IMG/VR virus record: IMGVR_UViG_3300046007_001750
Coordinates: 1-25,104 of that record
Strand: one strand, 5' to 3'
DNA length: 25,104 nucleotides
Source of the DNA: a virus
This document shows, piece after piece, positions 1 through 24,649 of the stretch (position 1 is the stretch's first letter; the number at the start of each line of letters is the position of its first letter). A program made the position numbers and the translations under genes. Below the pieces are notes generated by a model, which searched no databases, was not told where the DNA came from, and saw only the letters and a list, made by a program, of their open reading frames with translations.

Positions 1-232
1 TCGGCGTTGGACTAATAGAAATACTCGGCGTAACTGATGGCGTTTGCGTCCGTGTCGGTGTAATAGAAACGGATGGAGTAATACTAACCGATGGAGTGAT
101 ACTAATAGACGGTGTAACCGAAGGGGTTGGTGTCACCGAAGGGGTTCTTGTAACCGTTGGAGTTACTGTTACTGATGGAGTGACACTGATGGATGGAGTT
201 GGAGTTGGACTCGGCGTGACACTTGGGATTGG
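1..232 (-). repeat. Degenerate Thr-Pro-Ser coding repeat
   Basis: Short, imperfect DNA repeats (variants of actgatggagtgac read on the plus strand) encode the TPSVTP/SISITP tract of the leftmost gene. Most differences between units fall at third codon positions, so selection appears to act on the protein repeat and not on a DNA element. The tract continues past the left edge. Confidence 0.8.
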
Positions 233-475
233 ATAACACAAAAAGTAATTTCGCGCAGTAGGCGTTACCGGAGGAAATATGTCATATGCAGATTCTGCAC
301 TCGTGTATCCGCTTGGACAACCCGGAGCAGGAGTTCCCGCTGGTCCTCGTTGACCATAACGTCCAATCAATGCATATGGAACCGATACTGACGGTGCTAG
401 AACGTGTCGAGCTATACTCGCAGTTTCTGCATATGAACTTGTTGACGGAATACCAAAAGGAAATACTATAGTCAT
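1..475 (-). CDS. Mucin-like Thr/Pro/Ser-repeat virion protein, partial (3' end beyond window)
   Basis: The ORF is open to the left edge, with 158 codons visible. The ATG at 475 overlaps the stop of the preceding gene as ATGA, which implies translational coupling. Residues 1-35 resemble the starts of the two preceding small genes (PFGIPSTSSYAETAS). Residues 38-50 hold a short collagen-like stretch (GRYGQRGPAGTPAPG). From about residue 82 the protein becomes almost purely Thr, Pro, Ser, Val and Ile (for example PSVTPTPSVTPSISITP) with no sign of ending. Such tracts are known as extended stalks and as O-glycan acceptors in surface proteins. Because several glycosyltransferase genes lie a short distance upstream in the same direction, it is a candidate substrate; that link is inference. 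No enzymatic motif is visible. The function as a tail or baseplate appendage is inferred from neighbours and composition. Confidence 0.75.
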   Translation of the reverse strand, partial: MTIVFPFGIPSTSSYAETASIARHVLAPSVSVPYALIGRYGQRGPAGTPAPGCPSGYTSAESAYDIFPPVTPTARNYFLCYPIPSVTPSPTPTPSISVTPSVTVTPTVTRTPSVTPTPSVTPSISITPSVSITPSVSITPTRTQTPSVTPSISISPTP

Positions 476-668: not shown

Positions 669-902
669 CTATGAAAAAATACATAGTTCCATTTTACCCG
701 TTACTATCATTTCTTCATATTGTTCCTTTGTCAATAAACAAATACTTTTTCCTCTTGAACCGGACTCGGGAAATAATACAGTTTCTGCTTTTGACGCAGA
801 CAGCACATATCCAATAAAACTTGCACTAGATGCCACAGATGATGTTATTGCATAAGATGCACGGTAGGCGGACCCTGTTCCATATGGATATACACTTAAC
901 AT
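669..902 (-). CDS. Small Ala/Ser-rich structural protein
   Basis: I place the start at the ATG at 902 (77 residues), one base after the stop of the preceding gene and behind a GGAAG. An upstream in-frame start would overlap that gene by 53 bases. The N-terminal half has the SAYRASYAITSSVASSASF pattern seen in the fibre genes of this window. The C-terminal half is different (CLLTKEQYEEMIVTGKMELCIFS) and amphipathic. It begins the three-gene run of short paralogues at the left end. The role is inferred only from position and similarity; I do not recognise a named family. Confidence 0.6.
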   Translation of the reverse strand: MLSVYPYGTGSAYRASYAITSSVASSASFIGYVLSASKAETVLFPESGSRGKSICLLTKEQYEEMIVTGKMELCIFS

Positions 903-903
903 A

Positions 904-1770
904 TTAATCTTCCATAGAAAATACGTGTAAATAGACGTTAGTTGTTTTTGAACCACCGGAAGTATCTAGATTTTGTAATATATAATATAATTCATTTTCA
1001 CCCATGATCAATGACTTATTAAATCTAATATCATTCAAATCGGTTGTCATGTAACGAAGATTTGCTCCAATTATTTTTGGTACAAAATAGGTGGTTTGAC
1101 TGCCCGATAAAATAGCGTCTACTATCAAATTCGTATTATCAGCTGATTCGGTGGCAAAAGACCGAGATATTTCGGTTGGGTTGGATAATGATTGTGAAGT
1201 GGAATATAATCTAATTCGTGAAACATTATTCGTACCCACCATTGATGCACTTACCAATAAGTACGTCCTAGGAATACTAGTAGCTGTAATTGATCCCGTA
1301 ATAGTCTGCGGTGAATTTAACGTTGCCGTTATAGTTGGCATCTGCATTCTATTAGTAGTACTTATTGTAGAATCTTCTAATAAATATTTATTAAATATTA
1401 TTGTAGGAAATACTCCCGGTGAGGCGTTATCTATACGGTAATACGAAAGTTTACTAGTGGGAGAGTCTACAACGCCAAACATTGCCGGATCTATTGTATA
1501 GGTGTCTGCCGCACTCATACTAAAATCTCCCACTAACGCAATCGAATTTGAAACAAATGTATTACCAAATGATCTACTAACCTCACCTACCACATCTCTA
1601 CTAGATTGGTTATCATATAATCTAAATCGGCACGGTGCATTCGTCGTTATAGATAATAACATATAGGCTGAACCTAAATCAACTGAACCAGATCGTGTAT
1701 TATTTGTTGCTAACGTGATTTCTTCACGTTTAAATACCGCTCCTGCTTTAATATATTCTGCTAATCCCAT
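904..1770 (-). CDS. Virion structural protein with an internal domain duplication
   Basis: This ORF encodes 288 residues and is beta-rich in composition, with no catalytic motif. Two halves appear related. Around residues 34-120 the pattern is AYMLLS, then RFRLYD, then EVSRSF. Around residues 165-255 it is TYLLVS, then RIRLYS, then EISRSF. Each half is then followed by a hydrophobic strand and an aromatic-rich segment (LSYYRIDN; LNDIRFNK). The start at 1770 has no clear Shine-Dalgarno sequence, but no better start is visible. It lies between the sugar-modification cassette and the short paralogous proteins, in the same direction. It is likely a tail or baseplate-associated beta-sandwich protein. 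I do not recognise the family. Confidence 0.65.
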   Translation of the reverse strand: MGLAEYIKAGAVFKREEITLATNNTRSGSVDLGSAYMLLSITTNAPCRFRLYDNQSSRDVVGEVSRSFGNTFVSNSIALVGDFSMSAADTYTIDPAMFGVVDSPTSKLSYYRIDNASPGVFPTIIFNKYLLEDSTISTTNRMQMPTITATLNSPQTITGSITATSIPRTYLLVSASMVGTNNVSRIRLYSTSQSLSNPTEISRSFATESADNTNLIVDAILSGSQTTYFVPKIIGANLRYMTTDLNDIRFNKSLIMGENELYYILQNLDTSGGSKTTNVYLHVFSMED

Positions 1771-1812: not shown

Positions 1813-3642
1813 TTAGTTTTCTCTACGAACGGTTGATTCATAATGAAATATTCTATTGTGCGTGATTGGGCTTGCTAATAATACCGCCGGTTTAATGTTA
1901 CCCTTTATAGTTTCTTGGAACATATAACTCATCCATGTTTGTTCAAAAGGATGTTCCCACTGCGTTTCTATAAACATTTTATAATTACCTTCACGACTGA
2001 CTATCATGGGCCAATTAGCATAATAAACTTCACCCACCGCATAAGAAACTCCACGGTGCATATCAATTCGTGAAAACTTTGTTCGGGGGGCATATGGGTC
2101 TAATCCCGATATAGGTAACTTATCGTAGTCGGGCCATAGTTCGGATCTAATATGTTGTGGAACGTTATACCATGACACTTGGATATTATTATCCATGTAT
2201 ACTTCCGTATATGACAGTTTTAAGAAATCAAATTCTTCCTTTGCCATTATTTCATGAAGTGTCTTATATAAATCTGGAACGTATTTCCTAAATCCATTTC
2301 TGCATACTCCAGTAGAACTACTTCCATTGATATGCATATCATCTTCAAAAAAGAAATAATATTTACTGTCACTCTCGTGAAAATGTTTTGCCGCTAACAA
2401 TCTACCTCTATTGATTCCCAAATTTTCTCCTGCGACAATGTGCTCAAAATCATACTGTTTACATAAGTCGTCGTATTTGGAAATAATGGCGGAATCTGTA
2501 GAATTATTGATTAATATTTTACGTGGCCCCGTCTTCCAACTATCTTGATCATGAATACTTTTTGCAATACTTTCAAACTGTTCTGGGAAGTTGAAACTTA
2601 ACACATATAATGAAGTTTTATCTGTACTTGGTACATAAGTTCCTTTTGGGAAGTTACTTGTTTTTGGTACTTCTACTAAATGTGCGGAATCTTTTAATAA
2701 ATTTTCAATAAATGTTACAATCATTCCATCTGAATTAATCTCTGACCGTCTGTAGATGTGCGGTTCTAAATACGACATGATAGTAAACAAACTTTCTTCT
2801 GTCCCCATCAAGCCCTCGTTCAATGTATTTTGTAACAAAGAATAATATGTTGCATTTGCCTGACTAATGAAATCTTTGTGACCGCCAAACAGGCCTCCAC
2901 GGCAGACGTATGAAACATCTCGTCCCACATATCTATTCATTTTCTTGAAATCAAATCCATGAATTTCGTTTACAGCTTGATACGGATAACTCAAGAACAA
3001 AAACGTCTTTAATAGAGGAAGAATCTTATCAAATGATCTATCTTCAATAAGATAATGACTAAGAACTGTACTCGTTATACCTGCATCTAACCACAAGAAG
3101 TATTCCGAATTAAATACGTCCATGATTTTAGCATCATGAAGCATGAACATTTTTGATTGAACAATTGGGTTATACCATTCTAACGATGCTTGTGGACTTG
3201 ATCTTAACCATCCCTGTTCACCGGTTTGATTATACCATTGCGGATTAGTTCTGAGTTCTTGTGTGGTTTTCCAAAACGGGCTATATAAATTATCTCTAAT
3301 ATCGTTAAGTTCAAATGTTCTAACGTGCGTATTTGATTTGGTTCGGTTGGGATTTTTCCAAACTAAATGTTCTAATGTCTTTGGAATATAAATAAAAAGA
3401 TTAACAGGTATGTCTAAAACTCGTTTAAAGTTTTCTATGTAATGTGAAAAATCTCTTCCCGGGCGATTAATATTCCATAGTCCCGTTACTACGGTTAAAT
3501 TCTGTGTTACTTCAAATTTTTTTACGGTATTAATTTGCGTGTCATTTATCTGAAGTTCAAACAATTCCGCCATGTGTTTGACAAATTCCCGAAATTTATC
3601 GTCTTTACCGTATTTACTAATAAATTCTTGTAAATCAACCAT
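1813..3642 (-). CDS. Two-domain glycosyltransferase: HtrL/YibB-like plus GT-A domain
   Basis: This ORF encodes 609 residues, with AGGA seven bases before the ATG. Residues about 48-320 resemble the HtrL/YibB family: [19 protein letters not shown] near the start, a WLDAG motif at 184-188, GGLFGG at 249-254 and GTEES at 280-284. Residues about 343-609 look like a second, GT-A-type domain: an initial beta strand ([12 protein letters not shown]), [16 protein letters not shown] at 406-421, and an acidic EDDM at 433-436 suited to metal and sugar-nucleotide binding. A protein with both would be a bifunctional transferase, probably soluble, since no membrane segment or signal peptide is seen. It follows the carbamoyltransferase by only four bases. 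Donor and acceptor cannot be read from sequence. Confidence 0.75.
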
Positions 3643-3646
3643 ATCG

Positions 3647-5293
3647 TTATCCTTGTTTTGTTATATACGAATTTTCAATTACTAATCCATCCATATCAGA
3701 AGTAGTATATATTTGAAATGCATCTTTCACACTTGATAATATAGGTTTGCCATTAACATTGAACGAAGTATTTAATAAAACACCAACGCCGGTTAAATTG
3801 TCTACCTCTGTTAACAAATCATACAACCATTCGTTTTGTTCACGGGTTACAGTTTGAACACGTGCAGTATTATCTACATGTGTGACGGCGGGAATGATGT
3901 TTCTCCATTCTTCTCGTACTATCGGGCAAAAACTCATCCACCGAGATTCACCATTCCATTCAAAATATTTATTAACATCTTCTAATCGCACCACCGGTGC
4001 AAATGGTCTATACCACTCACGGTGTTTTACTTTTTGATTAAGAATGTCTTTCATTTCTTTGATTGCAGGATTACACAAAATACTTCTATTTCCCAAGGCA
4101 CGTGGGCCATGTTCAGAACGTCCTCTAGCAACGCCAATAATTTTTCCGTTGACCAATTCTTTTGCTATATGAGAAGTCGTTGCGTCATATAGTTTATGAT
4201 GATCAATAGATTCTAAGTAATGTAAAAACATATCAGTATCCAACAACGGTAGTCCTGAATACGTCAAGTCTACTGGATTTGTGGGTTTTAATACATTCAA
4301 CATCATTCCTGCTGCAATGCCACAATCATTCGGATTTGGTCCAACAAAAACTTCACGTTTAAATTCATTAACCAACCGTGTATTTAGAATAATATTTAAT
4401 CCACAACCACCTGCAATACATACTGGTAGATCTGGATATTTTTCAAAATATGGCTTTGCCACTTCCAAAAAACATTCCTCAAATGCTCGTTGTGATGTTG
4501 CCGCAATATCATATGCAATTTGTTCGTTAAACCGATTCTTGATGTCAAACTCAAAGTTAATTGGATTAGACATATTAGAGATAGAAATATTTTTTGCAAT
4601 TAATTTTACTACCTCATTGTAATTGTTTCCGTTTGGATCCAGTTTGTAGTATTGCATAAAATATGGCAACCATTCGTATCTAACATTTCCATATGAGGCA
4701 AGACCCATTAATTTACCCGGATACACTAAGTTTCCATGCCCCAACGATTCAAATTTTATATCATTTAGATAATGTCCAAATAACATATACGGAAATCCTA
4801 AGTCATAATCCATAAACCGAGTGTTATATATTGGATTCAATGTTTTTTCCAATAATTGGACTCCCGTCTCTCTATTTGCTAAATATACATTAAATTTTCC
4901 GTCATTGCCGCCGCCATCAAAAGAAAAGATTAATGCGTTTTCATATGGTGATTGATAAAAACATCCAGCTGCATGAGATTCATGATGTTTCATGGGAATA
5001 TAATTATCTGCCGGTATATATCGTTCTAAAGTATACCGAACTTCATCCATAATAACATCAGTGTTTGTATAATAACAATTTTCAAACTTATGAATGTTAA
5101 ACATCTTCATCAAAAGTTTTGGTATATATTGCGCATAATATAGAATGTTTTCTGCATTGGGCACTAAGTATTGTGCAATGCCATAATTTTTACGATTCAA
5201 TAATCGTTCTATTTCAACCACAGCCAATATTTCTCCGCCGTTTTCTATGACATACGCACCATTGTGAGAACCATAAAATGCTATTTGCGCCAT
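3647..5293 (-). CDS. O-carbamoyltransferase (NodU/CmcH/TobZ family)
   Basis: This ORF encodes 548 residues, near full length for the family, with GGAG seven bases before the ATG; that site overlaps the end of the preceding gene. The N-terminal Kae1-like domain carries HHESHAAG at 103-110, [10 protein letters not shown] at 123-132 and GGCGLN at 295-300. The C-terminal YrdC-like part has [16 protein letters not shown] at 391-406, WYRPFAPVV at 427-435, [12 protein letters not shown] at 471-482 and [13 protein letters not shown] at 506-518. All the hallmark motifs are intact, so the enzyme is probably active. Family members use carbamoyl phosphate and ATP to carbamoylate hydroxyl groups of sugars or natural products. 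Placement among four glycosyltransferase-like genes suggests a carbamoylated glycan as product (inference). Confidence 0.95.
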
Positions 5294-5294
5294 A

Positions 5295-6269
5295 TTACAT
5301 CTCCAATAAATTTAAAATGTGTGCTAATCTATTATGCGGAGAACAATAATCTAAGTAATATTGTCTGGCATTACACGTAATAAAATCTAAGAACGACCGG
5401 TCGTCTTTGACCTCCATGAATCGTTTAATATATGCGTCAACATATTGAGTGCCCCCTTTTCTATTTAGCCACATATCCTTTGGAAAGTCTGTGTTATCTA
5501 CTGCAATATAGTGATAGTCGGGTATTAGTGGTGGGTTCAATTCTGTCATATACGTTAAGTGCATATTTGGTATACCCAACGCCATATATTCAAATTCTCT
5601 ATGACAAATTTCTGCACTGCCTGCAATAGATAATCCAATTTTATATTTTAATAATTCTGATAAATAATTTGCGTAAGTAAACCCATGTCCATAATCTAAT
5701 ACTCCCAGTTCATGTAGTCTAACAAGATCAAATCGTTGAGTTCCGGGAGTGGTCAGACACACCATTTTGTCTATTAATTGATCCGTCGTCTTGTATTGTC
5801 GTTGGTTATAAAAGTACTCAACATTAACTGTTGGATCAAATGTATAAAAAGGTGTTCCTTTTACTTTAAACTTAAACGGCAGCGTATCTTTTGTTAACCC
5901 AAGTTGAAATTCGTTAAAAAAAATATTATGTTGCTGTGTTATTAATAACACATCGGCTGGGTTTTGTCTTTCTATAAAAAAATCTAACAGACGAGAACGT
6001 GACTCTCCGAAGGAGATGGCTCGTAGTATATCAGAAGATTCGTCATATATAATAATTTCACAATCAGGCATGTGATAATTAAACATATCAACGTATAGTT
6101 TAGGGACTGCTTTTAGTTTATCAGGAACCCCCGGATTAGGTATCCACTCATGACCTTTATCCGCGACGATTGTAGCATTATGATATTTTTTAAGATGTAG
6201 TGTTAGTTCTAAATATAAGTCATGCCACGTCCAATAACGATAACCACATTCGTGAAAATATACTTTCAT
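5295..6269 (-). CDS. Putative GT-B-type glycosyltransferase
   Basis: From the ATG at 6269 this ORF encodes 324 residues; a TTG at 6281 would add four residues and overlap the previous stop. Neither start has a clear Shine-Dalgarno sequence. The most telling segment is at about 212-234, beginning GLSIAGSAEICHREFEY and ending in ALGIP. It resembles the acceptor/donor-site stretch of GT-B transferases, in which a Glu in an R-E-F-E context sits before a hydrophobic-Gly-Pro turn. PPLIPDYHYIAVD follows, as in several such families. The N-terminal half (VYFHECGYRYWTWHDL, IADKGHEW, CEIIIYDESSD) fits an alpha/beta nucleotide-sugar fold. Neighbours on both sides are sugar-modifying enzymes. Specificity is unknown and the assignment rests on pattern only. 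Confidence 0.6.
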   Translation of the reverse strand: MKVYFHECGYRYWTWHDLYLELTLHLKKYHNATIVADKGHEWIPNPGVPDKLKAVPKLYVDMFNYHMPDCEIIIYDESSDILRAISFGESRSRLLDFFIERQNPADVLLITQQHNIFFNEFQLGLTKDTLPFKFKVKGTPFYTFDPTVNVEYFYNQRQYKTTDQLIDKMVCLTTPGTQRFDLVRLHELGVLDYGHGFTYANYLSELLKYKIGLSIAGSAEICHREFEYMALGIPNMHLTYMTELNPPLIPDYHYIAVDNTDFPKDMWLNRKGGTQYVDAYIKRFMEVKDDRSFLDFITCNARQYYLDYCSPHNRLAHILNLLEM

Positions 6270-6277
6270 ATATAATT

Positions 6278-7528
6278 TCAAATTTTTTGTTCAATACGTT
6301 CACACCACCCACGTTCGTTACTATAAGCCCAGAAAACGACTTTTGCAGGCCATTTATCGGTAAGGAACATTTCTTCATAATGAATTGGTACGCCAGTCGT
6401 CATAAAATTTTTTAATCGTGCACCGTCAATATATACATGCTTAATTCCAATATTATTTTCGTCATCATAGGCAACTAAGATGTGTTGATAATCTTCAGCA
6501 GAAAACTGGGCACGTGTAATTGTCACAAGATGATAAAACGACTTGAGAAATGACTGTTCCCATTCCATATCCGATACTGGTGGGTTTGGCGGAAATTTAT
6601 TTTCCATAGTATATTTTTGAACCGAGCGTTTTTTAAAATGTATACCCGCATACTTTTCATAATCACGTAAAGTACGAACGGTTCCCAAATCATATCCGGT
6701 TAAGTTAAATCCATTGTCTTCGGTGCGTAATAATTGACGAATTTTTGCTCTAGCCCTATCTTGCGCAGTCCACCAATTTTCACCACGTTTACTCTGATCA
6801 TCCCATACGAGTTTTCCATTACGTTCCTCTCGCATGGTTGCATGCCAAATAACAAGTTTGTGGGGATGAAATAAATCATATCCGTGAGTAAATGAACGGA
6901 CGGTGAGATTTAATTCCTCTCCGCTAAAATAGATATCAGGATCATGTTTAATTTCTCGTGCCCAGGCGGTCCGAGCAAATGCAAAGTGCCCCGATATAAA
7001 CCGTGAGTGAAATGGTTCTTTCATATCTTTCCAATTTTTAATTCCACCGGGTCGGATAAATATCGTTCCGTGTGGGTAGAAAGACGCAAATTGCTGTTGC
7101 CACGGTTCCATGGTACGTTCTACAGGATCATTAAACGGATTGTAATAAGGTAAGTATCCCGTAAGAATTGGTTTAAATTTTTTCTTTTCTAACTGGTTGT
7201 GCATGGAAATTAATTCAATGTCCCAGTGCTTAATAAACCGATGATGTGAGTCTAATTGTAGGATGTAATCTTCATCCGTGATTAATTCATTAATACGGGC
7301 ACGAGCGTATGGTAATCCTTTTGCTTGTTCATAAGGAATGTCTACAATTTTAAATCGTGAATCAGTTCTATACTCATCTATATTATCAAAGTCGTCTTTT
7401 AAATTAAATTGTCGGCAAATTCCAAATCGTAAATTTTTTGGATATTTTGCTTGGGCAATTGCATCTTTTATAGTCGGAATAAGTTCTGGTTCTCTATATG
7501 CGGGCAAATGTATAAATATGGTACTCAT
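6278..7528 (-). CDS. GT60-like GlcNAc transferase (Skp1 GnT1 family)
   Basis: This ORF encodes 416 residues, and its ATG overlaps the stop of its paralogue by four bases (ATGA). Family features of the GlcNAc domain are clear: IFIHLPAYREPELIPTI at 4-20, FGICRQ at 35-40, a metal-binding-type DSHHRF at 93-98, SGHFAFA at 179-185, SGEELNLTVRSFTHGYDLF at 202-220 and IWHA at 227-230. The founding enzyme, from Dictyostelium, transfers GlcNAc to hydroxyproline on a protein; bacterial and phage members are largely uncharacterised. The last 100 or so residues form a distinct beta-rich tail (YQHILVAYDDENNIG) also present in the upstream paralogue. It is probably cytoplasmic and acts during virion assembly. 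The acceptor is unknown. Confidence 0.85.
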   Translation of the reverse strand: MSTIFIHLPAYREPELIPTIKDAIAQAKYPKNLRFGICRQFNLKDDFDNIDEYRTDSRFKIVDIPYEQAKGLPYARARINELITDEDYILQLDSHHRFIKHWDIELISMHNQLEKKKFKPILTGYLPYYNPFNDPVERTMEPWQQQFASFYPHGTIFIRPGGIKNWKDMKEPFHSRFISGHFAFARTAWAREIKHDPDIYFSGEELNLTVRSFTHGYDLFHPHKLVIWHATMREERNGKLVWDDQSKRGENWWTAQDRARAKIRQLLRTEDNGFNLTGYDLGTVRTLRDYEKYAGIHFKKRSVQKYTMENKFPPNPPVSDMEWEQSFLKSFYHLVTITRAQFSAEDYQHILVAYDDENNIGIKHVYIDGARLKNFMTTGVPIHYEEMFLTDKWPAKVVFWAYSNERGWCERIEQKI

Positions 7529-8790
7529 TTTTTAAATTCCCCCGTTAATCTATTCATAAATCCTTTTGATTCACTTTCCGGCCACACCACCCAACGAACG
7601 GGCGTTCTATCTGAATAAAATTCTCTCCAAATATGTATAAACTTGTCTTGTTCTAAAGGAACACTTAATAATCTTTGTGATTCTTCCCGAGTCACATCTT
7701 TTCTAATTATTTCGTTACCATGTTCATCTTCAAATGCCACCGCCCAAAAAATATAATCATCTTCAGTAAATAGTGGTCGGTATAAATCAACACACACTTT
7801 ATGATAATTAACTAATTGAGAACTGTGTTCACTTTCGGTGATTGAAACTGGTGGGAATTTTTTAATTAAAGTTTGTTTATGTACTCGTCTGGTAGCAAAC
7901 TCTATTCCTGCGTATCGTTCATATTCTTTTAAAGTACGACGGTGTTTCTGTAATGTCTTATCTGATGTAGTATCTATGCCCAATAACTCACGGTTATGTT
8001 TGTGCGATTCTTTTTCTAACTCCACCCATTTACTATGGTCGTCCCAATGTTTACTTTTTCCCTCACGAGTATATTCGTGCCACATAAAAACTTTATGTGG
8101 GGCAAACAAATCATATCCGGCCATATACGAACGAACAGATAAATTAATTTCTTCGCCATGAAAATAGTACGTGGGGTCGTAAGGAACATCTCTGACAAAA
8201 GTTCCATCGGCAAAGATAAAATGCCCAGAGGCAAATCTGGCTGGAACTGGTGAACTTAGTTCTTTATAGTTATCTATTGATCGTGGCATAAAATGTACTG
8301 CGCCCTCTGGGGCAAACCGATCAAATTCCATAATCCACGGAGATTGTAATCGTGCTTCCGGGTCATTTTTGGGATTAAAACTTGGTAAATACGATGTCAA
8401 CATAGGTCTAGGACACTCCGCCGACCGAAGTGATTCTAGCATATTTATGAGAGTTACATCCCAATCTGTTGCAAATCTATGGTGGGAATCTATCTGTAAC
8501 GTGTATTGTTGATTGTTGTATAAATTGTTAATTTGATGACGAATCCAACATGGACCACGAGCATCTCTATAATCAACATCTAAAATAGTAAATTGTGGAT
8601 TATTTTTGTACTCGTCTAATGTATCCCATTCTTCATAGGGGGAGTGTTGCCATCCTATACCAAACTGTAATTTTTGGGGATACTTTGCCTTATCCAAGCA
8701 GTCTTTAATAGTATTTAAAAGTTCTGGATCTCGGTATGCTGCAATCTGTACGAATATTGTTTTATTTTTTACGGTTTGTTTTACTGCCAT
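7525..8790 (-). CDS. GT60-like GlcNAc transferase, paralogue of the next gene
   Basis: I place the start at the ATG at 8790 (421 residues) because GAGG lies six bases upstream; a GTG at 8802 would place that site inside the gene. It parallels its downstream neighbour along its whole length: TIFVQIAAYRDPELLNTI at 11-28, FGIGWQHSPYEEW at 43-55, DSHHRF at 101-106, SGHFIFA at 188-194, HGEEINLSVRSYMAGYDLF at 211-229 and MWHE at 236-239. The pair therefore arose by duplication and both keep the acidic and histidine residues expected for activity, so they may add successive sugars or act on different acceptors. It is the first gene of the modification cassette, preceded by a 58-base gap. Confidence 0.85.
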   Translation of the reverse strand: MAVKQTVKNKTIFVQIAAYRDPELLNTIKDCLDKAKYPQKLQFGIGWQHSPYEEWDTLDEYKNNPQFTILDVDYRDARGPCWIRHQINNLYNNQQYTLQIDSHHRFATDWDVTLINMLESLRSAECPRPMLTSYLPSFNPKNDPEARLQSPWIMEFDRFAPEGAVHFMPRSIDNYKELSSPVPARFASGHFIFADGTFVRDVPYDPTYYFHGEEINLSVRSYMAGYDLFAPHKVFMWHEYTREGKSKHWDDHSKWVELEKESHKHNRELLGIDTTSDKTLQKHRRTLKEYERYAGIEFATRRVHKQTLIKKFPPVSITESEHSSQLVNYHKVCVDLYRPLFTEDDYIFWAVAFEDEHGNEIIRKDVTREESQRLLSVPLEQDKFIHIWREFYSDRTPVRWVVWPESESKGFMNRLTGEFKK

Positions 8791-8848: not shown

Positions 8849-9115
8849 CTAATTGTTTTTCGGTGTATAGTCAAGTTCAAACGTTGTATTTAACACACTA
8901 GATTCACCGGATGTATTATCAATAAAATTGTCAGTTTCACTTGGTATATTAAAAAACTCATGTGCATCTTCCTTAGAATCAAACCAATACCACCCGTCCA
9001 CTGGATAACTGTATGTGTGATGATCTACCCGAGATAATCTATAATGTAAATTATGTACCTCAGTTGGTGCGTATAATAATGGAGTATCTAATTTATAAAA
9101 TCCACTGGTATCCAT
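8849..9115 (-). CDS. Small protein following the LRR fibre, unknown function
   Basis: I choose the ATG at 9115 (88 residues): GGAG sits eight bases upstream and this start avoids overlapping the preceding gene, while upstream in-frame ATGs lie deep inside it. The product is aromatic-rich (GFYKLDTPLLYAP, NLHYRLSRV, YPVDGWYWFDSKEDAHEFF) and ends in a hydrophilic tail (FELDYTPKNN). The WYWFDSKEDAHEFF part looks like a small folded domain. Placed 16 bases after a large adhesin gene, it could be a chaperone or a tip partner for that protein, which is a common arrangement in phages; no known chaperone family is recognised here. Confidence 0.65.
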   Translation of the reverse strand: MDTSGFYKLDTPLLYAPTEVHNLHYRLSRVDHHTYSYPVDGWYWFDSKEDAHEFFNIPSETDNFIDNTSGESSVLNTTFELDYTPKNN

Positions 9116-9131
9116 GATATCTTCTCCGTAA

Positions 9132-11417
9132 TTAAGGTACCACTGTCCAACCTTTTGCAACCACGCTACCGGTGTTATGAGTTGCGGTACCAAAATTACC
9201 AGTGACCGTAATAGTTTGTCCAGACGCCGATGGAAGTGCATCATAGATTCTATTCAAGGTTTCTCCTGATAATTGACAATTTGCCAGACTCAAACTAAAA
9301 CGTGATCCGGATGGGACTATATCTTGTAGTGATGGACAACTTGCTACCATATTGGCAAAATTTCCCGATGACCCGGAACTCATATCCAATACTGGTACTT
9401 TTGTTAAGTTTGTGCAACCACTAAACATGCTTTGAAAATTTGTCACATTTCTGGTATCATATTGCGGCACCGTTGATAATGCTGTACATCCTTGAAACAT
9501 ACTACTCATGTTTGATGCTGATACCGTATTCAATGTTGGTGCAGTTTTCAACGAGAAGCAATTTAAAAACATACTATTCATCGTTGTCATTTTACCTGTG
9601 TTTGATAAATTAACATCTGTTAAATAATTACAATTTTGAAACATTTGACTTCCCGTTGTAGCATTATCTAATCCCGAAATAGTTACGGTTTTTAATGTAT
9701 TACACCCATCAAACATAAGCGCAGTGCTTCCTGTAAAAGCAGTTGGTGAAAATTGAATATTAATAGATTCCAATGCAGTGCACGACTGAAACATTGCCGG
9801 AGATGTTGATGATGACGGCGCTGCAACACTTATACTTTTTAATGAAAAATTACTATTAAACATAAAATTTGTATCACGGGCAGGTATAACAAAATACGGT
9901 AAATATTCTAACGACCAACAACGAAAAAACATACTTTCGGTAGTACGACATGAATTCGTTAAACTGTTTAATAGTCCAAGTGGAACCGTTTTCAACGAAT
10001 AACATTCAAAAAACATACCAATTGTTGTGGTTACCGACGAAAGATTATAGGCGGGTACATTTTGTAAATTCCAACACTGCCGAAACATATTAGTAGCATT
10101 TTGAATTTTACTTGTATCCATCATTGGAGCATTTATCAAGTTATTACAAGTACCAAACATAATGTCTGCCACTACAATATTTCCAGTATTATATATTGGA
10201 ACCGTTGTTAAATTACGACATGTAGTAAACATATTAGAAGCAGTTACACAACCGGTTAAATCCAAGGCCGGTGCTGTCACCATTGCTTGGCAATTTGCAA
10301 ACATGTTCGTTGCATTGATTACATTTCGTGTATTCAATGTTGGTGCGTCCATTAAATTACGACAACCACCAAACATAAAACTAGCATCTGTTACGTTACT
10401 CATGTCCAATGATGCAAATTTCAAATTTACACAGCTATTATATAAATTATTTGCTACCACTAAATTAGTAGTGTTCGTTAAGAGTACACTAATAAGATTC
10501 GGAGAAGACGTAAACATGAAACTTCCCGTTACTACATTTGGTAAACTCGCACTTACTGACGCCAAATTAGGTGTGGCGGCAAACATTCTTGCCGTAGATT
10601 GTAGTAACCCAGAATGTACGATATTACATTGTTCTAACATATTCATTCTAGGATCAATCGTACTACCCGTCAACATTCCTATAAATAAACTATTTGATAT
10701 ACTTGCACTTGGTACACTAACCGTTAAATCCAACCATTGATTGGTGTAATTATTTTGTAGATTTGATTGATTGTGTTTAACATTTAAGTTAACGTATGTT
10801 AAATTTTGCCCAGACTGCGGAGTAATACTAACCGTTGCCACACGATACGGTAACAAAGAACCAGATCCATTGTTTATAAATTGAATTACAGATGATGTTG
10901 CTGGCGTAGTTAACTGAAAACTATTTGTGCTTGAACTTATCACGTAATATGTCTGCCCTTCAATCACACCCGGATTTCCAGTTATGTTATATATTTGTAC
11001 GGCGTCACCATTTAGATACCCGTGATTATTTCGTCTGACTAAGTTTGACGAGGATTCAAGAGTAACCGGTGCTTCTGTACCAATTAACGCAGATGCGGAA
11101 TAAGAAAACTGTTTGTATAAAGTTCCCCCCGATCCCGTTGTGGCAGTGGTACCATCTCCATAATCTACTTGCCAGTCACCAGAACATGATGCTGCCCAGA
11201 AATTTCCTCCTCCAGAAATTACGGCAAATAATCCCACTACACGTTGATTTGCCGTGGTAACAGCGGGCAACGTGGGCCACGATAAATTTCGTTTCCATGT
11301 TTGCCCTAATGAAGTATTTCTGAGTATCGTTGGTATTACGTTTAACGACGGTCTGCCACCGCCGTTTGCAATTACCGTTGAGTTAAGTAATCGTTGTTCT
11401 GGATTTCTGGCACTCAT
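9132..11417 (-). CDS. BspA-type leucine-rich-repeat tail adhesin
   Basis: This ORF encodes 761 residues. The ATG shares one base with the preceding stop (TAATG) and has GGAG eight bases upstream. From about residue 255 to 690 there are roughly 18 units of about 23 residues on the pattern MFxxCxNLxxxPxxNTxNVxxA, typical of BspA/DUF285 surface proteins. The N-terminal part has a PKD-like opening (GDWQVDYGDGTTATTG) whose expected closing strand (YRVATVSITPQSG) appears only about 75 residues later. Between them lies a segment with NHGYLNGDAVQIYN and TYYVISSSTNSFQL, which looks like an inserted beta domain. The C-terminus ends GNFGTATHNTGSVVAKGWT, a capping region usual for phage LRR proteins. It is probably a receptor-binding or surface-adhesion fibre. 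The receptor is unknown. Confidence 0.88.
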   Translation of the reverse strand: MSARNPEQRLLNSTVIANGGGRPSLNVIPTILRNTSLGQTWKRNLSWPTLPAVTTANQRVVGLFAVISGGGNFWAASCSGDWQVDYGDGTTATTGSGGTLYKQFSYSASALIGTEAPVTLESSSNLVRRNNHGYLNGDAVQIYNITGNPGVIEGQTYYVISSSTNSFQLTTPATSSVIQFINNGSGSLLPYRVATVSITPQSGQNLTYVNLNVKHNQSNLQNNYTNQWLDLTVSVPSASISNSLFIGMLTGSTIDPRMNMLEQCNIVHSGLLQSTARMFAATPNLASVSASLPNVVTGSFMFTSSPNLISVLLTNTTNLVVANNLYNSCVNLKFASLDMSNVTDASFMFGGCRNLMDAPTLNTRNVINATNMFANCQAMVTAPALDLTGCVTASNMFTTCRNLTTVPIYNTGNIVVADIMFGTCNNLINAPMMDTSKIQNATNMFRQCWNLQNVPAYNLSSVTTTIGMFFECYSLKTVPLGLLNSLTNSCRTTESMFFRCWSLEYLPYFVIPARDTNFMFNSNFSLKSISVAAPSSSTSPAMFQSCTALESINIQFSPTAFTGSTALMFDGCNTLKTVTISGLDNATTGSQMFQNCNYLTDVNLSNTGKMTTMNSMFLNCFSLKTAPTLNTVSASNMSSMFQGCTALSTVPQYDTRNVTNFQSMFSGCTNLTKVPVLDMSSGSSGNFANMVASCPSLQDIVPSGSRFSLSLANCQLSGETLNRIYDALPSASGQTITVTGNFGTATHNTGSVVAKGWTVVP

Positions 11418-23186: not shown

Positions 23187-24059
23187 TCACTGCGGTTGGA
23201 TGTGAGATAATAGTTGTTGAATGACCCAGAAGGGGCGTTCCTTTATATCACTACCCCAAAAACGTAATACTGTATAACCATGTTGCTGGGCAATCTCAGT
23301 TTTTAATTTATCTTTGTGTTGTGTCTCATGTAAAAACGGTGAATGTGTTTTTATACTAGGGCCACCATGCCAATAATCTCCATCTACTTCAATTAAAATA
23401 GGTAAGTTTTTTAATTTAAAATCATACGCAAAAGTTTCATCGTTTTCTGTAATAAAAAACTGATGATGGTACGGTGTATTGGTTTGCTCTAGCATCTTCA
23501 TGAACAATTTTTCAATATCGGTCAAACTACGTTTAGCAAAAATCTTTTTTACCATTTCAGGACTTTTCATCAATTTACTATGCTCAGGACGTTTTTTTCC
23601 ATAAAATGGATTATTTTGCCCAGACATTTTTTTAGATAATTTTTGTCTCCATCCCTTATTTTCACGGGCAGCTTTCATTTTTTCTTTATACCCATCTTGT
23701 TGCCAAACTTTTTTCTGAGCTTCACTCCAATTCACCGAGTTAATAAAATCATATTCCCCGTTAGCAAACTTTTCCTTACGTTTCTGAGAGATATTTTCAC
23801 GAGCTTCTTTAGTGTGAGATTTTCCGTACATGGGGTTATTTTCACCTTTATTATTATGACCGTTTGCATATTCACCATATCCACGATCACTGCGCCATTT
23901 GGTAGGTGTTCCGCAACCACACTTACAAGTTGGAACTTCTTTTATACCATGATATTCACGGTATAATGATTCCCCAACGAGTTTATATTTGGTTCTTGTG
24001 TGTTTTGCTAATGCATTATAAGATGAATATTCTTGGTTACATCTTGGACATTTAAACAT
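23187..24059 (-). CDS. Free-standing homing endonuclease, NUMOD3 plus Vsr-like nuclease
   Basis: I choose the ATG at 24059 (290 residues) because AAGGAG lies five bases upstream; an in-frame start at 24110 would place that site within the gene. The N-terminus is zinc-finger-like (FKCPRCNQEYSSYNALAKH, with C4, C7 and H20) and is followed by CKCGC at 45-49. Two NUMOD3-like DNA-binding motifs follow (NNPMYGKSH near 74 and NNPFYGKKRPEH near 149). The C-terminal 110 residues match a Vsr-like (EDxHD) nuclease: E183, D213 (YDFKL), IEVDGDYWH at 223-231, D250, and GYTVLRFWGSDI at 261-272. All candidate catalytic residues are present. It lies between the tail tube and the next structural gene, not inside an intron as far as can be seen. 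Confidence 0.9.
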   Translation of the reverse strand: MFKCPRCNQEYSSYNALAKHTRTKYKLVGESLYREYHGIKEVPTCKCGCGTPTKWRSDRGYGEYANGHNNKGENNPMYGKSHTKEARENISQKRKEKFANGEYDFINSVNWSEAQKKVWQQDGYKEKMKAARENKGWRQKLSKKMSGQNNPFYGKKRPEHSKLMKSPEMVKKIFAKRSLTDIEKLFMKMLEQTNTPYHHQFFITENDETFAYDFKLKNLPILIEVDGDYWHGGPSIKTHSPFLHETQHKDKLKTEIAQQHGYTVLRFWGSDIKERPFWVIQQLLSHIQPQ

Positions 24060-24062
24060 AAA

Positions 24063-24107
24063 AACTCCTTCGTGATAGTGTACATATATACATATCACGA
24101 AGGAGTT
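24063..24107 (-). promoter_or_regulatory. RNA hairpin sequestering the homing endonuclease ribosome binding site
   Basis: On the minus strand a 15-bp perfect stem (AACTCCTTCGTGATA with TATCACGAAGGAGTT), plus a one-base bulge and four more pairs, closes on a six-base loop. The 3' arm contains the AAGGAG that serves the ATG at 24059, and the stem ends in a T-run just before that ATG. Translation from read-through messages would be blocked, as known for T4 homing endonuclease genes. The stem with its T-run could also terminate transcription after the tail tube gene. Confidence 0.75.
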
Positions 24108-24160
24108 CAAAACATCAACCGGATTAGATTATTTTGAATATTGTAATAAATACAGTATAA

Positions 24161-24649
24161 TTACCAGTTCAACACACAATAATCGGGTTGGATGGTAACA
24201 GTAAACTCTACTTGTTCATCTGCACCCCAATCCATGTCACCAAAGTTTACTTCCGTAATTTGTGCACCCTTGATGATCCATTCTTCTACCTTGTCGCCGA
24301 CCGGTCCAAGCACATTCAGCGTCAAGTCCTTTTTGTAAAATTCAAGGTACCCGTCACGACCGGTTACAGATTCGTGGTGAAGACGAACCCATTCCATGAC
24401 TGCTTGCGCACCGGATGGAACAATTGGATCGTATAGGGTCATTTGCATGTTACCCCACTTACTCTTACCCTTAACATATCGTTGTACGTTGATATGGTCA
24501 AGAGCCTTTGCTTCTTGTGAAAAAGTCGGTCGTGCAACCTTTTTTACGATGTATGAAGGAATTCCATCCATGTAGAGGATGAAACGATTCTTCATCTTTG
24601 GTTCAAATGCTGTGAAGAATAATTCTTGTTCAGTTACTAGATTAGCCAT
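24161..24649 (-). CDS. Tail tube protein, T4 gp19 family
   Basis: This ORF encodes 162 residues, essentially the length of T4 gp19, with GGAG eight bases before the ATG. The family pattern is clear: PKMKNRFILYMDGIPSYIVK near the start (the first tube strand), VARPTFSQEAKALDHINVQR, a KGKSKWGNMQMTLYDPIVPS segment, and a closing ITEVNFGDMDWGADEQVEFT with VTIQPDYC. The protein forms the hexameric rings of the inner tail tube through which DNA passes. It follows the sheath gene in the order found in T4-like phages. Here it is followed by a homing endonuclease and then fibre genes, not by a portal gene. Confidence 0.95.
   Translation of the reverse strand: MANLVTEQELFFTAFEPKMKNRFILYMDGIPSYIVKKVARPTFSQEAKALDHINVQRYVKGKSKWGNMQMTLYDPIVPSGAQAVMEWVRLHHESVTGRDGYLEFYKKDLTLNVLGPVGDKVEEWIIKGAQITEVNFGDMDWGADEQVEFTVTIQPDYCVLNW

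Follow-up and report, generated by a model that had tools for sequence, protein, structure and literature searches.

The window analysed here is a 25.1-kb linear virus fragment (IMG/VR record IMGVR_UViG_3300046007_001750, positions 1 to 25,104), and the subject of this study is a cassette of five genes at positions 8790–1813 on its minus strand. In reading order, the cassette encodes two GT60 transferases (GT60a, 421 residues, 7525–8790; GT60b, 416 residues, 6278–7528), a glycosyltransferase of predicted GT-B fold that we term GTX (328 residues, 5295–6281), a NodU/CmcH-type O-carbamoyltransferase (548 residues, 3647–5293), and a 609-residue protein in which an HtrL/YibB domain is fused to a second GT-A domain (1813–3642). 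The genes abut or overlap: GT60a and GT60b share four bases (7525–7528), GT60b and GTX also overlap by four bases if the TTG at 6281 starts GTX or lie eight bases apart if the next ATG does, and gaps of one and four bases precede the carbamoyltransferase and the HtrL gene, respectively. Nearly all genes of the window are read leftward, the order from right to left being a tail tube gene, an HNH homing endonuclease, structural and fibre open reading frames (ORFs), a 761-residue leucine-rich-repeat (LRR) protein, and the cassette, after which a 288-residue protein, two small ORFs, and the start of a mucin-like ORF (475–2) follow on the same strand. An initial annotation had described the same ORFs, in this order and just as tightly spaced, and its structural setting is confirmed by the tail tube gene and by several surrounding ORFs that match tail-fibre PHROGs in a profile search of the window ORFs. 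We propose, with a probability of roughly 0.7, that this phage encodes, in these five genes, a system of mucin-type O-glycosylation that works in the cytoplasm on proteins of its own particle, a reading based on the enzyme families and their motifs, the conserved architecture, the swapping of modules, and the co-occurrence with mucin-like genes.

The GT60 identity of the first two enzymes, named in the initial annotation, is clear from PF11397, which GT60a matches at 2.1e-73 and GT60b at 6.2e-55, with scores of 248.3 and 187.5 bits, respectively, against a curated cut-off of 21. The two are 39% identical to each other, and IMG/VR contains relatives of GT60a with 57–67% identity; a sequence search of the PDB with GT60 gave no match. 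The DxH motif (D101-S-H103), the GEE motif (G212-E213-E214), and the C-His H238 are invariant among 21 GT60 homologues, and these motifs are alike in GT60a and GT60b. The DxH variant is common to GT27 and GT60, two families that share polypeptide Ser/Thr O-glycosylation (PMC7185993, a GT-A fold study), and the GT60 enzyme of Trypanosoma cruzi starts N-acetylglucosamine (GlcNAc)-alpha-Thr on mucins (PMC9472816). Judged by its sequence, GT60a is thus proposed to be the initiating polypeptide alpha-N-acetylhexosamine (HexNAc) transferase. In one related locus (L047:4819-7434), two GT60 domains are fused in a single protein of 871 residues.

The last cassette protein matches PF09612 (HtrL_YibB) at 1.1e-12 (48.5 bits, cut-off 24.1), over residues 45–298 only, and as it misses the threshold of the YibB equivalog TIGR02192 (39.7 versus 264.9 bits), it contains a related domain and is not YibB itself. 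Its structural model comprises two GT-A domains, and the whole model is matched by Foldseek to two-GT-domain proteins, namely LH3, chondroitin polymerase, and LARGE1, so that the earlier label of an HtrL/YibB protein with an added GT-A domain fits both the profile and the model. A sequence search of the PDB returned only chance MAD2B matches. IMG/VR contains at least 216 relatives of the fusion. The motifs WLDAG and FEDDM, the latter situated in the second GT-A domain in the C-terminal half, are invariant. Three of the HtrL proteins (L028, L072, and L087) have about 400 extra N-terminal residues and reach about 1,030 residues.

GTX has no match in Pfam, PHROG, or NCBIfam and no relative among 50,697 phage records, and its homologues were found in 33 loci. 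According to its AlphaFold model, which has a mean predicted local distance difference test (pLDDT) score of 90.9, GTX has a GT-B fold: the best Foldseek match in the PDB is POGLUT1 (5l0t, E 2.9e-6), the others are GT-B enzymes, and GtfA is among the fold neighbours. The label "GT-B-like" given to this protein in the initial annotation is therefore well founded. The carbamoyltransferase, also correctly named before, exceeds the cut-offs for both its N- and C-domains (PF16861, 2e-64, and PF02543, 2e-27), aligns to the novobiocin carbamoyltransferase (9s2t, 2e-53) and to GdmN, with TobZ as a further match, and in the alignment with 9s2t and GdmN retains intact HHxx-type and NTSFN catalytic motifs. 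We propose that it adds a carbamoyl cap to the glycan.

Cassettes of this kind recur in phages. In a survey of 60 non-redundant loci, drawn from IMG/VR and the jumbo phages XacN1 and RAS14, GT60 genes, usually in two copies, generally open the cassette and the HtrL gene closes it; with redundancy included, GT60 stands alongside the HtrL fusion in 78 of 94 fetched loci. Between these constant ends, the non-redundant loci contain 34 different middle modules, composed of GTX, the carbamoyltransferase, GT2-, GT8-, and GT10-type transferases (GT10 being fucosyltransferases), a GDP-mannose dehydratase, an epimerase, O-methyltransferases of the FkbM and CmcI types, and unassigned families. Enzymes of the GDP-fucose pathway are thus represented, although several of the assignments are weak profile matches. 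The exchange is clearest at DNA level in two loci (L021 and L023) with DNA polymerases that are 99.65% identical and HtrL proteins that are 97.7% identical: they are 95% identical as far as GT60b reaches, have no similarity in the 2.6-kb middle, and are 96.9% identical from the first bases of HtrL to the end of the locus. The swap runs exactly from the end of GT60b to the start of HtrL and has the pattern of serotype switching. The carbamoylation named in the initial annotation is only one of many alternative caps and not a hallmark of the system.

A product other than a surface glycan is conceivable, as relatives of the carbamoyltransferase serve antibiotic biosynthesis (novobiocin, GdmN, TobZ), and the cassette could then make a small glycoside, diffusible or cytoplasmic, that has nothing to do with surfaces. 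However, no aglycone-making gene was recognised in the modules seen, and the genes that stay constant encode transferases of the GT60 and HtrL types, so we regard this as the least credible explanation. The position of the cassette varies by lineage, since it lies beside DNA polymerase and chaperonin genes, beside ribonucleotide reductase, or beside the tail sheath gene, and a tight, universal tie to tail genes had to be rejected; the link to tail genes made in the initial annotation holds in the window but not as a general rule, and in those other lineages the mucin genes may lie in trans. As glycosyltransferases that modify phage DNA are well known, and as one lineage has the cassette next to DNA polymerase, the transferases and the carbamoyltransferase might decorate hydroxymethylated bases of phage DNA. 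This is highly improbable in our view, because the genes around the cassette vary from lineage to lineage, the known GT60 acceptors are polypeptides, and mucin-like genes co-occur with the cassette. The initial annotation had named a consistent location of cassette homologues in DNA-modification clusters, away from tail genes, as evidence against its own reading; Tet/JBP, the only form looked at, was over the cut-off in none of 50 cassette contigs, with one weak sub-threshold match, and base hydroxymethylases were not searched.

For the preferred reading of a mucin-type system acting on the virion, a candidate acceptor lies in the window itself. The mucin-like ORF at 2–475 (minus strand), cut by the window edge and not mentioned in the initial annotation, begins with an N-terminus that resembles its fibre-like neighbours and continues into a (TPSx)n tract, with 15 TP[ST]x units within the visible 158 residues. 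Full-length counterparts of 419–450 residues with the same N-terminus occupy the same place in three related loci (L006, L013, and L017). In many cassette loci, moreover, an ORF of 250–1,550 residues that consists largely of TP[ST]x repeats stands directly before GT60a, and the one in L006 has 1,542 residues and 228 units. A mucin gene lies at most three genes upstream of GT60a in 16 of 46 loci. Counted by gene, 18 of the 83 that occupy the three positions before the first GT60 are mucin-like, compared with 12 of 337 for the other non-cassette genes (Fisher 5e-7). The serines of the repeat are encoded by both TCN and AGY codons, which indicates selection on the protein and not on the DNA. A Pro/Thr/Ser tandem-repeat acceptor candidate, as is typical of mucin-type O-glycosylation, is thus encoded together with the enzymes.

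The association extends to whole contigs. The mucin pattern was present in 32 of 50 cassette contigs and in two of 39 random contigs (Fisher 3e-9), and conversely, GT60 was present in 18 of 50 contigs chosen only for mucin repeats and in none of the 39 random ones. A first local test of mucin loci had seemed negative (3 of 79), largely owing to the short stretches used, and the result changed with whole contigs. Within one DNA-polymerase lineage, mucin tracts were found in all six GT60-positive contigs of at least 100 kb but in only one of 13 GT60-negative ones, and this sole exception carries TPTPTP linkers only. The exact pattern misses real tracts (in G102 and G108), and a shorter GT60-positive contig of the same lineage that it missed carries a mucin ORF of 939 residues. 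The complete jumbo genomes XacN1 and RAS14 combine GT60 with 29 and 25 mucin matches, respectively, whereas RaK2, GAP32, 121Q, CBB, Atu_ph07, SCTP-2, K64-1, and BF have neither mucin matches nor GT60.

Several observations weigh against a general coupling of mucin tracts with the cassette, and with it against the acceptor that we propose. The random control contigs were shorter (1.8 versus 4.0–4.8 Mb in total), although length-corrected deficits remain (Poisson 0.001 and 6e-5), and the GT60-positive contigs of the DNA-polymerase lineage form one clade, so that few independent events were counted. GT60 was not found in 32 of the 50 mucin-repeat contigs, which means that such tracts need not depend on this system or use others, and the notion that mucin tracts always mean GT60 was rejected on these grounds; TPTPTP linkers, too, occur without GT60 (G157 and G056). 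Conversely, no (TPSx)n tract was found in one cassette contig of 114 kb (G129) or in the ribonucleotide-reductase lineage (L069, L081, and L083). In XacN1, finally, the glycoproteins are not identified in the published text (PMC5852040), and this phage also has a GT9-annotated gene. As separate observations, mucin-like proteins of the (TPSx)n type abound in IMG/VR viral contigs, mostly without GT60 (L094–L172; at least 120 matches), and two loci (L059 and L060, on the large phage contigs G117 and G118) show about 300 mucin-pattern matches each together with an HtrL cassette that is without GT60 in the stretch fetched.

Because some cassette contigs are without mucin tracts and many mucin contigs are without GT60, and because the nearest large upstream gene in the window is the LRR gene and not the mucin ORF, the enzymes could act chiefly on other Ser/Thr-rich fibre or LRR proteins, or on the termini of capsid or tail tube proteins, with the mucin tracts as passive spacers. 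We consider this unlikely, as the mucin tracts are the gene type that repeatedly co-occurs with and adjoins the cassette, and mucin-like acceptors are among the precedents of the GT60 family. The putative role of the LRR protein, whose identity the initial annotation also lacked, would be that of a virion adhesin or an alternative acceptor. It has 761 residues, is encoded directly upstream of the cassette (9132–11417, minus strand), and belongs to the BspA/DUF285 type (PF03382, 1.1e-22; PF13306, 4.4e-16).

Besides virion O-glycosylation, the initial annotation had offered remodelling of the host surface against superinfection, that is, an alteration of lipopolysaccharide, capsule, or another surface glycan, as has been proposed for cyanophage sugar clusters. 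Polymorphic gene clusters of this kind have been read as host-surface systems (PMC7824862), carbamoyltransferases are frequent in cyanophages, and the module swapping resembles that of O-antigen loci. However, none of the five proteins is a membrane glucosyltransferase or a flippase of the kind that marks serotype-converting (Gtr) or O-antigen systems, and the window cassette has no membrane protein or lipid-linked initiator; it lies in a structural gene block, mucin genes co-occur with it, and glycoproteins have been reported for XacN1 (PMC5852040). The superinfection branch therefore has a slim chance only, while virion O-glycosylation with a carbamoylated glycan is now better supported, with likely acceptors that are narrower than "fibres", namely the long (TPSx)n mucin-like proteins that co-occur with GT60 and often adjoin it.

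The proposed mechanism is as follows. The five enzymes contain no membrane segments (maximum 19-residue hydropathy 1.32), and the phage mucins show no obvious export signals, which together argue that the sugars are added inside the host cell, in the cytoplasm, ahead of particle assembly. The first HexNAc, probably an alpha-GlcNAc with UDP-GlcNAc of the host as donor, would be placed by either or both of the GT60 enzymes on Thr/Ser in the (TPSx)n tracts of virion proteins, including the one that starts at position 475. GT60b and GTX may then extend the chain, and the carbamoyltransferase would carbamoylate one of the sugar hydroxyls. The HtrL protein, with its two domains, would form a linkage that comes late or last and is shared by all variants. 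The glycan "serotype" would be set by the middle genes and passed between phages through recombination, and the tail or head fibres would carry a rod-like spacer, coated with sugars, with a quickly changeable outer chemistry, a coat that perhaps alters adsorption or evades sugar-binding or proteolytic attack. Whether this extends to many large aquatic phages, which would then build true viral mucins with hundreds of Thr/Ser acceptors, cytoplasmic GT60 O-glycosylation, and carbamoylated, fucosylated, or methylated glycan serotypes switched by module exchange between GT60 and HtrL, appears to us an evenly balanced question.

The cassette phage XacN1 offers a hint from experiment, since at least two glycoproteins, not named in the text, were detected in it (PMC5852040). 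The GT60 of its cassette is ORF334. Among its structural genes, ORF350 encodes a globular domain flanked by long TPSx tracts, and ORF325 has a further such tract at its C-terminus. A cellular counterpart is found in the cultured bacterium Jiulongibacter sediminis, where, on a 1.3-Mb contig (L423:4961-15163), a GT60-like gene and a gene for a mucin-like protein whose N-terminus is of the export type are divergent from an adjacent set of GT60, carbamoyltransferase, and FkbM-HtrL-GT-A fusion genes; the presence of such an enzyme set beside a mucin-like protein supports our acceptor assignment. This cluster adjoins UDP-glucose dehydrogenase and decarboxylase-like genes. In Burkholderiales, GT60 genes (L440:16643-19003 and L446:15108-17603) lie near VgrG-like type VI secretion genes with products that end in long (TP)n tails, and GT60 may glycosylate secretion spike proteins there.

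The remaining window features are the tail tube gene (24161–24649), the HNH homing endonuclease ORF between it and the structural genes (23187–24110, minus strand), and an ORF of 131 residues (8849–9244) that overlaps the 3' end of the LRR gene in another frame. Downstream of HtrL, the 288-residue protein (cluster c37, 904–1770, minus strand) has no family match in profile searches and occupies the same position in the close lineage of the window (L004, L006, L013, and L017). The gene between it and the mucin ORF (cluster c52, 669–902, minus strand) encodes a small protein that has a fibre-like SAYRASYA motif at its N-terminus and whose start was placed at an internal ATG by judgement; this order is kept in L006, L013, and L017. 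Promoter and terminator scans of the window remained at shuffle level, and it contains no Rfam match and no tRNA.

If our reading is correct, the surface glycans of phages could be predicted from sequence and tested genetically, given a defined initiator, a visible acceptor, and a module that can be swapped. It would then also have to be asked what selects for variation of a serotype-like kind on the particles. The cassette would also be a source of soluble prokaryotic mucin-building enzymes, and our analysis suggests functions for HtrL/YibB domains, phage carbamoyltransferases, and the (TPSx)n proteins of aquatic viromes. To our knowledge, the mucin-type O-glycosylation of long (TPSx)n acceptors is seen as a feature of eukaryotes, and we know of only a few cases of phage virion glycosylation. 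While phages that glycosylate their virions and GT60 enzymes that glycosylate mucins are both already known, the literature covered, largely without subscription papers and preprints, contains no account of phage mucins, proline-rich-repeat glycosylation, the GT60-HtrL frame, or module switching.

Among known systems, the eukaryotic GT60 mucin-type O-glycosylation (T. cruzi TcOGNT) shares the GT60 initiator with DxH, the Thr/Ser/Pro-rich acceptors, and the addition of sugars to the first HexNAc, and Skp1 GnT1 of Dictyostelium and Toxoplasma is likewise a GT60 initiator. In contrast to these systems, the phage cassette, whose activity is predicted, is soluble, uses no secretory pathway, and has a swappable module with carbamoyl, methyl, or fucose decoration. 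Phage-encoded glycosyltransferases act on the virion also in mycobacteriophages, with glycans on capsid and tail tube (Freeman et al., 2023, cited in PMC12619734), and in XacN1 (PMC5852040), whereas the GT60-HtrL frame, mucin acceptors, module swapping, and the carbamoyltransferase are not described in the accessible text of those accounts. The polysaccharide clusters of cyanophages and jumbo phages resemble the cassette in their polymorphic sets of glycosyltransferases and carbamoyltransferases in large phages, but are interpreted as host-surface or secondary-metabolite systems, with no GT60-HtrL frame or mucin link in the accessible part of that source (PMC7824862). Bacterial O-antigen and serotype loci have the same constant flanks and exchangeable middle in near-identical genomes, whereas the window cassette has no lipid carrier, flippase, or polymerase. 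The glycosylation of serine-rich repeat adhesins by GtfA/B, finally, is a cytoplasmic modification of Ser/Thr-rich repeat surface proteins, and GtfA is the fold neighbour of GTX mentioned above; there, however, GtfA/B and not GT60 acts as the initiator, and the acceptors are secreted by bacteria, while those of the phage would be built into virions.

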